Assembly: GCF_035621135.1 (NCBI RefSeq)
Contig: NZ_CP141728.1
Coordinates: forward strand, 2,542,001-2,606,000
DNA from: Sinanaerobacter sp. ZZT-01
GTDB taxonomy: Bacteria; Bacillota; Clostridia; Peptostreptococcales; Anaerovoracaceae
Direction: 5' to 3'
DNA length: 64,000 nt
Shown: in pieces, positions 25,763 through 29,034 of the stretch
Numbering within the stretch: position 1 is the first letter of the stretch
Layout of the letters: each line of letters starts with the position of its first letter
Made by a program: the position numbers and the translations under genes
The notes under the pieces: generated by a model
Told to the model about the DNA's origin: nothing
The model's input: only the letters and a program-made list of their open reading frames with translations
Database searches by the model: none

Positions 25763-26560
25763 ATGAAATTATTTATTAGTGCAGATATGGAAGGCGTAGC
25801 TGGAGTAACTAATTGGTGTGAGACTCAATATGGAGGGCAGGGATATGAAGAAGCATGCCATCAAATGACTTCAGAAGTTGCAGCTGCATGCAGAGCTGCG
25901 ATAGAGCTTGGGTATGAAGTGGTTATCAAAGACGGACATGAAAATGCTTTAAATATTAAGCAGACGATGCTGCCAAAGGGAGTACAGTTGATTAGAGGCT
26001 GGATGTCATCACCTGCATCCATGATGGCGGGACTAGATGATAGTTTTGATGCAGTTGCTTATATAGGCTATCATTCTCCGCAGGGAAGCGATACGAGTCC
26101 TTTGGCTCACACGATCCGGCACGATTTATTTCACTGGATTAAAATTAACGGAGAGTTGACTTCAGAGTTTTCGTTAAATGCCCTTTGGGCAGCCGCGAAT
26201 AAAGTACCGTCTGTATTTCTTTCAGGAGATAACGGAATGTGTGAGATTGCGAAAAAAAATTACCCTGGTATTGTTACAGTAGCAACCAAAACAGGGATTG
26301 GAAATGCTACTTGGAATATTCATCCAGAAGAAGCGGTTGAAAGAATTGAAGAGGGTGTGCAGGCCGGATTAAAAGCGGGGGTCGCGTTGATCCCGATAAA
26401 AGATGAATATAAGATGGAAATTCATTTTAAGGATCATCAACATGCAAGGAGTGCATCTTGGTATCCGGGAGCCTTTCAAATGGATTGCAATACCGTGATA
26501 TATACAGCGAAAACCCCAGAAGAATTAATGATTGCACGCATCTTCATGACAGGAATTTAG
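25763..26560 (+). CDS. M55 family D-aminopeptidase (DppA-like)
   Basis: A 265-residue zinc aminopeptidase of family M55. Conserved blocks: MKLFISADMEGVAG (metal ligands), KDGHENALNI, GYHSPQGSDTSPLAHT, and FLSGDNGMCEIAKK. Bacillus DppA releases D-alanine from D-Ala peptides and is thought to help recycle cell-wall peptides. The gene stands alone with a CGGAGGAAAG ribosome binding site. Substrate not tested. Confidence 0.92.
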   Translation: MKLFISADMEGVAGVTNWCETQYGGQGYEEACHQMTSEVAAACRAAIELGYEVVIKDGHENALNIKQTMLPKGVQLIRGWMSSPASMMAGLDDSFDAVAYIGYHSPQGSDTSPLAHTIRHDLFHWIKINGELTSEFSLNALWAAANKVPSVFLSGDNGMCEIAKKNYPGIVTVATKTGIGNATWNIHPEEAVERIEEGVQAGLKAGVALIPIKDEYKMEIHFKDHQHARSASWYPGAFQMDCNTVIYTAKTPEELMIARIFMTGI

Positions 26561-26711
26561 ATAATGAAATTTATAAAAATATGATAATCCTATAATAGAA
26601 GAAGTTCAGCCGAATAATTTTGGTAAACTCTATAACTTTATTGGTTTCATATCGTGTCAAAAATGTTAAAAAACGAAGTACTGCCAATAATGACAGTGTG
26701 AAGAAAATGGG

Positions 26712-26750
26712 AGAGTGCAGTGTCCCTATATAATCAGTTAGCTGCACTCT
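26712..26750. terminator. Hairpin, probable terminator for the minus-strand small gene
   Basis: A 9-bp stem, AGAGTGCAG/CTGCACTCT, with a 21-nt loop. In the minus direction it lies 58 bp after the zinc-ribbon gene and is followed by CCCATTTTC, a weak U tract. The remaining gap from 26561 shows no other feature. Confidence 0.45.
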
Positions 26751-26807
26751 ACTATGACCGCTTCCAAAAAATAAATCGGTTGGGGAACCAAATACGAGAA
26801 GTTTCGG

Positions 26808-26957
26808 TCAAAAATTAGCTTTAACGAATTCTAGACAACGGAAGCAAATTTTGTGCCCTTTAAATTGAGCATCGGTAGTTTCACTGCCGCATAAGGTGCA
26901 AGTTTTTTGTTTTGATACATGCTTGACACGATGTGTTAAACTTTTTTCATTTTGCAT
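26808..26957 (-). CDS. Small zinc-ribbon protein, 49 residues, unknown function
   Basis: A short reading frame with two CxxC pairs 15 residues apart (CTLCG and ICFRCLEF), which is the pattern of a zinc ribbon, after a basic N-terminal segment (HRVKHVSKQK). An AAAGG ribosome binding site lies 10 nt before the ATG, and a hairpin follows the stop. It is too small for usual gene callers. The complete four-cysteine pattern, with the hydrophobic spacing expected for a knuckle, makes a chance frame unlikely. Role unknown; such proteins bind nucleic acids or partner proteins. Confidence 0.7.
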   Translation of the reverse strand: MQNEKSLTHRVKHVSKQKTCTLCGSETTDAQFKGHKICFRCLEFVKANF

Positions 26958-27101
26958 TTCTATAAACCTTTCTGTGACTCCAATTAGTATTTTTTATTTT
27001 TTGGAAGCTATCTTTATAATAAGTTCATAAAAATCAAAAATCAACAATTTTTTACATTTATGTAATAATTAATCATTTTAGTGTTATGAAGTAACAAGAT
27101 A

Positions 27102-27130
27102 TTGACACTGACAGAAAAAATCAATAAGAT
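27102..27130 (+). promoter_or_regulatory. Promoter of the LtaS-like gene
   Basis: TTGACA and TAAGAT at 17-bp spacing, 48 bp before the GTG start. Confidence 0.6.
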
Positions 27131-27177
27131 ATATATGTATCAATATGATATAAAACCGTAAAATCGGAGGAAAATAA

Positions 27178-28995
27178 GTGAAAGATAACGAAAATCAAAA
27201 CATAACATGGGAGAAATTTCGTAAATCAAGATATGTAAAAGTTATTTTATCGATTATCCTGATTACAATTTTAATAAGCTCTTCATCTTTCAGCACAGTA
27301 AGTAAATCGATTACAAACCAAGAGTTCTTTTCTTATCATGTGAAAGATATCATCAATTATTTTTTTGGAGGCACGGATGTTGTTTTAGCAAATAGTCAAA
27401 ATTTTGCTTATGAGAAATCAATTGACGATGGGCCGCTCTATGGTGTGGCAAAAGGCAGGAATTTGATTGTGATTCAGGTGGAATCTTTTCAAAATTTTTT
27501 AATTGGAAGAGAATACAACGGAGTTGAGGTCACACCTAATCTGAATAAGCTGATTGAAAACGACAGCATTTATTTTGACAATTATTATATGCAGGTCGCT
27601 ATGGGGAATACTTCGGATGCAGAATTTGCAACGAATAATTCCTTGTATGGAGCGATAGAATATTGCACATACGCCCTTTATGATAACAATCACTATCGCG
27701 GTCTGCCGATTCTATTGGATGAGAAAGGGTATGACGTAGCAGCTTTTCATGGATATAAAAAAGAATTTTGGAACCGTTGCGGAGCTTATTCTGCTTTGGG
27801 GTTTAAGAAGTTTTATAGTGAAAAAGACTATGATTATGATGATGTGGTTGGCTTTGGAATTCGTGACGACGACTTTTTCCGCCAGTCGATTGCTTACATG
27901 CAAAAAATGAGGCAGCCATTTTATTCTTTTTTGATTACTTTGAGCAACCATCATCCATTTCCGCTCCCGGATGGAGAAGAGCCGATTCCTGCTAAAAAGG
28001 GGGATGAGGGGACACTTGTATATAATTATTTAAACAGTGCGCGTTTTACGGACAAATGTATTGGAGAATTTATTGAAGGACTGAAAGAGAGTGGTCTTTA
28101 CGATGACTCGGTCATTGCGATTTACGGAGATCATTTTGGATTAACGGCAAGTGATCCGGATATTCAAAAATCTATGAAAAAATTGCTGGGTAAAAAATAT
28201 GATGTGGATGAAATGGCAAGGATTCCGCTTATCATCCATATTCCGGGTGAAGATGTGACGCAGACAATCAGCATTTCAGGAGGGCAGCTAGATTTTCTTC
28301 CAACGATTGCTTATTTAATGGGATTTGAGTCCTTAGATACCTTATACTTAGGGCAGAATCTTATGACTGCGAAAAGCGGATTTGTTACAGAGGGTATTTA
28401 TTTTCCGAAAGGTTCCTTTGTAAAGGATGATGTTTTTTATGTTATGTCTAAGGACGGTGTTTTTGAGAATGGACGTGCATGGAATATAAAAACGGGAAAT
28501 AAAGTGGATATAGAGGATTTCCGAATTGATTCTCTTAGAGCGGAACAATTGATTGTGCGTTCTCAATCCTATTTGAAAAATGATACGATAGGCCAAATGC
28601 TAGGAAAACTGAAAAAACCTTCTTCTGTGAATGACCCAAGCTCGATCAATAAGCCGACAGAAGGAGTGAATGTCACAGATCCACCGGAAAAAGCAACGAC
28701 TATGCCTGAGCAAGTAGAACCGATTATGCCTGACCAGACGGAAGAGGAAGAGGAAGAAGAAAATGAAATAGAAGAGCCTTCTGATCAGGAGGGGATGATT
28801 GATGAAGAAGGGGACGATTCTGAGGAAATTATTATTGGGCCGAATGGTTTGCCGGAAGGGTTAGATCCATCGTTGGAGTTTCAGGATAAAAACTCTCAAG
28901 ACAACGGAGCTGAGCCAATTGTTCCGAGTTCTTCCAATGAGCAGACAGATGATTCATTACACGAAGATGTGAGCGACCCAATAGAAACTGAATAA
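27178..28995 (+). CDS. LTA synthase-like sulfatase-fold enzyme with single membrane anchor and acidic tail
   Basis: A 605-residue protein of the LtaS/alkaline phosphatase superfamily. The catalytic residues of lipoteichoic acid synthases are all visible: the metal glutamate in VIQVESFQ (near 102), the nucleophile threonine in GNTSDAEF (near 144), and the DH pair in YGDHFG (near 318), with spacing close to that of S. aureus LtaS. It probably transfers or cleaves a phosphoglycerol-type group outside the cell. Unlike LtaS, which has five membrane helices, it has only one (about residues 22-40). The last 150 residues are a low-complexity Pro/Glu/Asp tail. The start is GTG, 7 nt after CGGAGG, and the upstream frame is closed by stops, so the short N-terminus is not a start-calling artefact. 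Confidence 0.88.
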   Translation: MKDNENQNITWEKFRKSRYVKVILSIILITILISSSSFSTVSKSITNQEFFSYHVKDIINYFFGGTDVVLANSQNFAYEKSIDDGPLYGVAKGRNLIVIQVESFQNFLIGREYNGVEVTPNLNKLIENDSIYFDNYYMQVAMGNTSDAEFATNNSLYGAIEYCTYALYDNNHYRGLPILLDEKGYDVAAFHGYKKEFWNRCGAYSALGFKKFYSEKDYDYDDVVGFGIRDDDFFRQSIAYMQKMRQPFYSFLITLSNHHPFPLPDGEEPIPAKKGDEGTLVYNYLNSARFTDKCIGEFIEGLKESGLYDDSVIAIYGDHFGLTASDPDIQKSMKKLLGKKYDVDEMARIPLIIHIPGEDVTQTISISGGQLDFLPTIAYLMGFESLDTLYLGQNLMTAKSGFVTEGIYFPKGSFVKDDVFYVMSKDGVFENGRAWNIKTGNKVDIEDFRIDSLRAEQLIVRSQSYLKNDTIGQMLGKLKKPSSVNDPSSINKPTEGVNVTDPPEKATTMPEQVEPIMPDQTEEEEEEENEIEEPSDQEGMIDEEGDDSEEIIIGPNGLPEGLDPSLEFQDKNSQDNGAEPIVPSSSNEQTDDSLHEDVSDPIETE

Positions 28996-29034
28996 AAAAA
29001 CAATGGATTCTCGATCGAGGGTCCATTGTTTTTT
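28996..29034. terminator. Bidirectional terminator between the LtaS-like gene and rqcH
   Basis: AAAAACAATGGA pairs with TCCATTGTTTTT; A and T runs on the two sides allow it to act on both converging genes. Confidence 0.85.

Follow-up and report, generated by a model that had tools for sequence, protein, structure and literature searches.

A single-helix LtaS-type protein of Sinanaerobacter sp. ZZT-01 as the possible catalytic chain of a naturally split phosphoglycerol transferase

The window analyzed here, a 64,000-nucleotide stretch of the Sinanaerobacter sp. ZZT-01 genome, encodes a 605-aa LtaS-type single-span enzyme (positions 27178 to 28995, forward strand, GTG start). We propose, with confidence that is about evenly balanced, that this protein forms the catalytic chain in an LtaS-type phosphoglycerol transferase that is split by nature, and that it pairs with a module of the first four transmembrane helices (TM1-4) encoded by a separate gene. 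The proposal starts from the anatomy of the two proteins, their separate genes, their conservation and the selection acting on them, and would extend from these to a pairing in trans, a chemistry and an acceptor. LtaS-type enzymes have been described with one shared five-helix architecture, and full-length LtaS is reported to require its membrane domain, the role of which is regarded as open (PMC4192460). When the membrane and extracellular halves of Staphylococcus aureus LtaS were supplied from two plasmids, activity was not reconstituted, as stated in the section of PMC10865820 that cites Wormann 2011. Given this shared architecture, the open role of the membrane domain and an artificial split that did not work, a split in the TM4-TM5 loop that evolution has kept makes it testable whether TM1-4 can act in trans when an anchor stays with the catalytic domain, and also poses the question of what TM1-4 contributes. 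The artificial cut was reportedly placed after TM5; a natural cut between TM4 and TM5 lets the catalytic chain retain an anchor, a difference that may explain why the split is tolerated here, unlike the artificial one. Our literature search, which covered titles and the beginnings of abstracts and had most subscription journals outside its reach, returned no report of natural split or single-helix LtaS chains.

The window gene is preceded by a ribosome-binding site, GGAGG, identified by eye (27166 to 27170), and by a promoter-like TTGACA-17-TAAGAT sequence (10/12; 27102 to 27130) of a kind no commoner around the gene than in shuffled sequence (12 such sites in the region versus a shuffled mean of 10.1). 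A terminator-like hairpin follows at 28995 to 29034 (2 in the region versus a mean of 1.4 in shuffles); all of these features lie on the forward strand. The gene is flanked by a 617-base gap on one side and a convergent gene on the other, and the gap upstream contains a possible 49-aa zinc-ribbon protein on the reverse strand (26808 to 26957; CTLCGSETTDAQFKGHKICFRCL).

A simple hydrophobicity scan, as distinct from a trained predictor, found a single hydrophobic segment in the protein, at residues 22 to 40 (27241 to 27297), in agreement with the original prediction of one membrane helix instead of five. This helix aligns with TM5 of five-helix relatives, and the accompanying idea that a five-helix domain had been replaced by one helix is right as to the one helix and in need of refinement as to the replacement, with a TM1-4 module occurring as a separate gene. 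The alignment places a membrane-proximal motif, NQEFFSYHVKD, at residues 47 to 57 (27316 to 27348), in which His54 and Asp57 are invariant in 46/46 aligned rows, and the LtaS-type catalytic domain spans about residues 74 to 475 (27397 to 28602), as delimited by Pfam, a solved-structure match and a predicted model. We note by eye a possible signal-peptidase site ahead of this domain, VLA-NS (VLA-SS in the orthologue of Anaerovorax sp. IOR16), at residues 69 to 73 (27382 to 27396); sites of this type are absent from nine other comparable rows, and a tenth, L106, shows a different stretch.

The LtaS-like character of the catalytic domain, also part of the original prediction, is borne out by a Pfam Sulfatase match (1.4e-39) and by the closest solved structure by sequence, which is LtaS (2w5q, 2.5e-71), with LtaP (4uop) at 7.2e-64. 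The NCBIfam LtaS profile NF053595 matches at 9.5e-94 and 315 bits, only over profile positions 209 to 579 of 626 and below the equivalog cut-off of 970 bits, and four five-helix relatives that we scanned also fall below this cut-off (297 to 329 bits). The predicted model, derived from 46 related sequences, has high confidence in the catalytic domain, where 328 residues reach a pLDDT of at least 90, and its top structural matches are LtaP 4uop and, close behind, LtaS (TM-scores by target length of 0.87 and 0.83), such that sequence favors LtaS and fold comparison slightly favors LtaP. The protein ends in an acidic, proline-rich tail, residues 476 to 605 (28603 to 28992), with 31% Asp plus Glu, 11.5% Pro and a net charge of -34. 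The acidic Pro/Glu/Asp composition is as first described, the length is about 130 residues rather than 150, and structure prediction indicates that the tail is mostly disordered, with pLDDT below 50 over most of residues 482 to 605.

Alignment identifies Thr145 (27610 to 27612) as the nucleophile and Glu102 (27481 to 27483), Asp318 and His319 (28129 to 28134) as the presumed metal ligands, roles that we carry over from the S. aureus LtaS structure. These four residues, together with His191, Trp198, Arg200 and His258, which we take to be the substrate (active-site glycerol-phosphate) residues, are invariant in 46/46 aligned relatives; Tyr193 stands at the position of Asp349 (S. aureus numbering). 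Polymerization by LtaS is thought to need the membrane domain, a second glycerol-phosphate site (Ser486 and His489), and Lys306 and Tyr483 (PMC4192460). In the window chain, Asn144, Phe320 and Thr323 stand at Lys306, Tyr483 and Ser486 (Listeria monocytogenes numbering), and Asp326 stands at the His489 position, an assignment made less sure by a nearby alignment gap. The primase LtaP likewise has an Asn, Asn278, at the position occupied by Lys306 in polymerizing LtaS (PMC4192460). Asn is found at this position in 45/46 aligned relatives, five-helix ones among them, and Asp, Glu or Asn takes the place of His489, part of the second glycerol-phosphate site, in 43/46. As the polymerization residues are missing in five-helix relatives too, the window chain is not singled out by their absence; across the group, transfer of glycerol phosphate may thus follow a modified scheme, use another acceptor or proceed unit by unit. 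With the Lys/Tyr/Ser/His set absent, the window enzyme may make something other than canonical LTA, and the earlier suggestion of a different polymer is possible to that extent.

The genome consists of one contig of 3.37 Mb and contains three ORFs with a Sulfatase domain, namely the window gene, a second single-helix LtaS chain of 727 aa (C1, 3,090,289 to 3,092,472, reverse strand), and a distant 677-aa protein (27% identity over 241 residues) with several hydrophobic stretches recognized by eye; another full-length LtaS is not among them. Upstream of the 727-aa chain, and overlapping it by four bases, is a 212-aa ORF with four hydrophobic helices, which is the only match in the genome to a TM1-4 profile at E values up to 10. 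These two ORFs occupy the place where relatives keep a full five-helix LtaS, in the order TM1-4 ORF, short chain, FeoB-like, RmuC-like and metallophosphoesterase-like genes (most names by eye). On NF053595 the 212-aa ORF matches positions 6 to 139 (43 to 137 for its 175-aa IOR16 orthologue) and the window protein 209 to 579, making the two complementary pieces of the LtaS profile. The 212-aa ORF is a maintained gene and not debris, as purifying selection acts on it (pN 0.18 and pS 0.77 over 175 codons shared with the IOR16 orthologue) and conserved positions have been kept: both orthologues retain 15/15 positions conserved at 85% or more in 16 fused TM1-4 regions and 6/6 positions invariant in them, and in a leave-one-out control 5/16 fused regions keep all such positions. 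Tree evidence that the window gene and the 212-aa ORF are halves of one gene was sought and not obtained; the TM1-4 ORF is too short for placement and can go with three sets of enzymes.

Within the genus, the window gene was compared with that of one other species, Anaerovorax sp. IOR16 (NZ_JADQTL01; G001 in our numbering, the present genome being G000). The IOR16 orthologue has 606 aa, is 76% identical over 599 residues and shares the downstream NFACT-like, YicC-like and guanylate-kinase-like genes (names by eye). An NFACT-like gene is present in 15/16 other genomes checked, and by contig and position an LtaS gene adjoins it only in IOR16. The window gene therefore probably reached its present place on the branch to its genus. 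Between the two orthologues dN/dS is 0.03 in the catalytic part and 0.28 in the tail, with synonymous sites near saturation.

Single-helix chains recur beyond this pair. From the matches in the family and order we took a subset, 60 surrounding regions in all, and scored the ORFs in each. In most regions a single "long" chain runs from TM1-4 through a charged linker, variable in length, to TM5 and the catalytic domain (the tree rows comprised 51 long and 4 outgroup chains), and 17 also carry a "short" chain consisting of TM5 and the catalytic domain. All 17 tandem short chains have a TM1-4-bearing ORF directly upstream, with an overlap of 1 to 59 nt when counted from the first start codon. This upstream ORF is a complete long enzyme in 14/17 regions and lacks a catalytic domain in the other three, where it measures 212 aa (this genome), 175 aa (IOR16) and 358 aa (G200). 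The G200 locus (L115, 1607 to 4770), in which a 358-aa TM1-5 protein with a long acidic linker has a four-base overlap with a single-helix LtaS chain, provides a further and separate example of a membrane module that has no catalytic domain. Both tandem partners carry TM1-4 in 7/51 named records (L165, L166, L168, L169, L171, L177 and L179), which belong to Clostridium sp. Cult1-3, C. ultunense and Tissierellia MAGs. The tandem series suggests that a membrane module is able to act in trans for a partner, a step that we infer from these arrangements.

We looked for further free-standing modules among the family genomes, 59 of which have a TM1-4 match and 54 of these in an open frame of at least 600 aa. 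The remaining five are this genome, IOR16 and G200 (own stop, overlap with the short chain), G008 (a broken gene) and G095 (243 aa, its match lying some 240 bases from the end of a contig). A sample of 393 order genomes added four more frames below 600 aa, two of which are long enough for a whole enzyme (G486, 594 aa; G397, 580 aa) and two of which lie near a contig end (G480, 270 aa; G454, 440 aa). A Tissierellia MAG has a 154-aa TM ORF and a 659-aa catalytic ORF with an overlap of about 60 nt (L174, 4519 to 6902), which may be a frameshift.

Sequence comparison places the window gene in another lineage than the tandem short chains. An insertion of 4 to 6 residues is present in 17/17 short chains and absent from the window gene, its IOR16 orthologue, the 4 outgroup rows and 49/51 long rows, with the two remaining long rows showing a three-residue insertion. 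The short chains also extend at the C-terminus by at least 185 residues, again in 17/17; the window gene has its acidic tail instead. A recent copy of a same-genus short chain was rejected as the source of the window gene, both by the lack of insertion and extension and by a tree test, in which uniting the window pair with the short chains of its own genus was rejected at a p-AU of 0.009. A clade of the window pair with all short chains gave p 0.436 with 74 rows, one faulty row being untrimmed, and p 0.038 with 65 rows and the faulty row trimmed, a value that is weak given several tests. At the 17 columns distinguishing short rows from long ones (insertion included), the window gene agrees with the long rows at 8 and with the short rows at 5, a lean toward the long enzymes that does not settle the lineage.

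The window gene most likely descends from a five-helix enzyme, judging from these alignments and trees, and several source enzymes are compatible with them. It can be grouped with the long enzymes of G036 and G205 (p 0.659 and 0.158 in two tests of this joint clade) and with the long enzymes beside a WecC-like gene (L093, L095, L106 and L109; p-AU 0.715); an early impression that both halves group with G036 and G205 weakened after the G205 row (L114) had its frameshifted contig end removed. A grouping with five full-length LtaS of the nearest genera (G343, G094, G088, G087 and G086) was rejected for the catalytic part (p 7.9e-5), and one free tree placed the window pair beside a larger clade holding those five with support of 32. 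The free trees disagree on the window pair, which takes three different positions in them at support values no higher than 92.

Under the split-enzyme reading, we hypothesize that the ancestor was a five-helix enzyme from which the window chain lost TM1-4 and kept TM5 and the catalytic domain, while the TM1-4 module would survive in the same genome as the separate 212-aa membrane protein. The window chain would be inserted N-in/C-out by its own helix, and its Thr would take glycerol phosphate from phosphatidylglycerol, by analogy with LtaS, which is known to load this group onto its own Thr (PMC3089822). It would then assemble in the membrane with the 212-aa module, which would supply the acceptor handling that five-helix LtaS would perform within one chain. 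The adjoining 727-aa chain would probably use the same module. That one four-helix subunit serves two separately encoded anchored catalytic chains with different C-termini, a folded extension in one and an acidic tail in the other, is a tentative and somewhat doubtful extension; if true, chemistry and acceptor handling would be spread over exchangeable subunits of a modular LTA-synthase-type system. Counting against the pairing are the 0.52 Mb that separate the window gene from the 212-aa ORF, the two-plasmid result in S. aureus, and trees that do not trace the two to one gene.

One alternative is that the window protein is an autonomous single-span phosphoglycerol transferase with no TM1-4 partner, which would transfer single glycerol phosphates in a primase-like or glycan-decorating role without polymerizing and would leave the 212-aa module to serve only its co-encoded 727-aa chain. 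We consider this a serious rival, though rather less likely than not. It is consistent with the absence of a TM1-4 gene near the window gene, with Asn144 at the position shared by Lys306 and LtaP Asn278, with the substitutions at the His489 position, with LtaP as the best structural match ahead of LtaS, and with the in vitro cleavage of phosphatidylglycerol, the first step of the reaction, by isolated catalytic domains (PMC3089822). However, five-helix relatives miss the same polymerization residues, LtaS and not LtaP is the nearest solved structure by sequence, and the tandem single-helix chains stay beside a TM1-4 module in 17/17 cases. A surface hydrolase, released or tethered near the wall by the acidic tail and cleaving phosphatidylglycerol or glycerol-phosphate polymers, is improbable: the strongly acidic, disordered tail and the possible signal-peptidase site in both species would suit such an enzyme, but the scan found no Pfam wall-binding domain and inspection by eye no sorting signal, the phosphodiesterase model PF01663 scored under its cut-off, and His54 and Asp57, kept in 46/46 rows, would be needless for a released enzyme. 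Motif reading thus gave no evidence of a free hydrolase or of attachment to the wall through the tail, both of which the original prediction had suggested.

The single helix could also be the product of a sequencing, assembly or frameshift error or of a decaying gene, as the original prediction had itself cautioned, and relatives do provide such cases, with the G008 gene broken into ORFs of 246 and 350 aa. A tblastn search with three TM1-4 sequences against positions 26001 to 27400 gave a best E of 0.67, yielding no upstream TM remnant, and the assembly of a second species of the genus has the same gene architecture beside the same downstream genes, which argues against an assembly error; a frameshift or assembly error hiding TM1-4 was rejected on these grounds. 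Together with the low catalytic dN/dS, this makes an artifact or pseudogene highly improbable.

For the split enzyme, a secondary cell-wall polymer is one possible acceptor, offered here as a lead only, on the basis that the genome has no match at E 0.001 to DltD (D-alanylation) or TagB/F-type enzymes and carries a WecG/TagA homologue beside a CsaB-like gene. This homologue (L213, 6504 to 8412; G000 C1, 3315503 to 3317411) adjoins a CsaB-like pyruvyl transferase (by eye) and transketolase-like halves; the WecG-transketolase order is common to G000 and G276, and LtaS and WecG occur together in G276. Elsewhere, a five-helix LtaS adjoins a WecC-like UDP-sugar dehydrogenase in 4/4 records (L093, L095, L106 and L109; also L156 and L157; names by eye), with a WecG/TagA-like glycosyltransferase nearby in 3/4, where the ORF table shows it (by eye), and the L093 WecG shows 61% to the Pfam-confirmed WecG of G000. 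These neighbors suggest placement of glycerol phosphate on a ManNAc-type glycopolymer. We also note the C-terminal extension of about 200 residues in many full-length and 17/17 short LtaS chains (L139, 6390 to 6959; L148, 6501 to 7133; and similar), which matches Pfam GDPD in 4/13 cases scanned (best 1.6e-13) and gave nothing significant in a PDB profile search (best E 0.21). The extension may be a pseudo-phosphodiesterase fused to LtaS, as the catalytic His seem lost where read by eye.

Among known systems, the window chain resembles LtaS of S. aureus, Bacillus subtilis and L. monocytogenes in its catalytic fold, nucleophilic Thr, metal ligands and His/Trp/Arg/His substrate residues, but differs in having one helix rather than five, with TM1-4 in a separate gene, in lacking equivalents of Lys306, Tyr483, Ser486 and His489, and in carrying an acidic tail. 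It shares with the L. monocytogenes primase LtaP the Asn at the Lys306 position, the lack of a second glycerol-phosphate site and the structural match to 4uop, whereas LtaP has five helices in one chain (PMC4192460) and a sequence score below that of LtaS; the B. subtilis protein YvgJ has been called a primase as well (PMC3089822). With the tandem short chains it has in common TM5, the catalytic domain and a chain without TM1-4, but the insertion, the C-terminal extension and the upstream TM1-4-bearing ORF of those chains are absent from it. The five-helix LtaS beside a WecC-like gene are similar in having no long C-terminal extension, and 3/4 of them carry Pro- or acid-rich tails of 32 to 75 residues, a kind of tail also present in another long enzyme, L098; unlike the window chain, they keep TM1-4 in the chain and occupy another genomic place.
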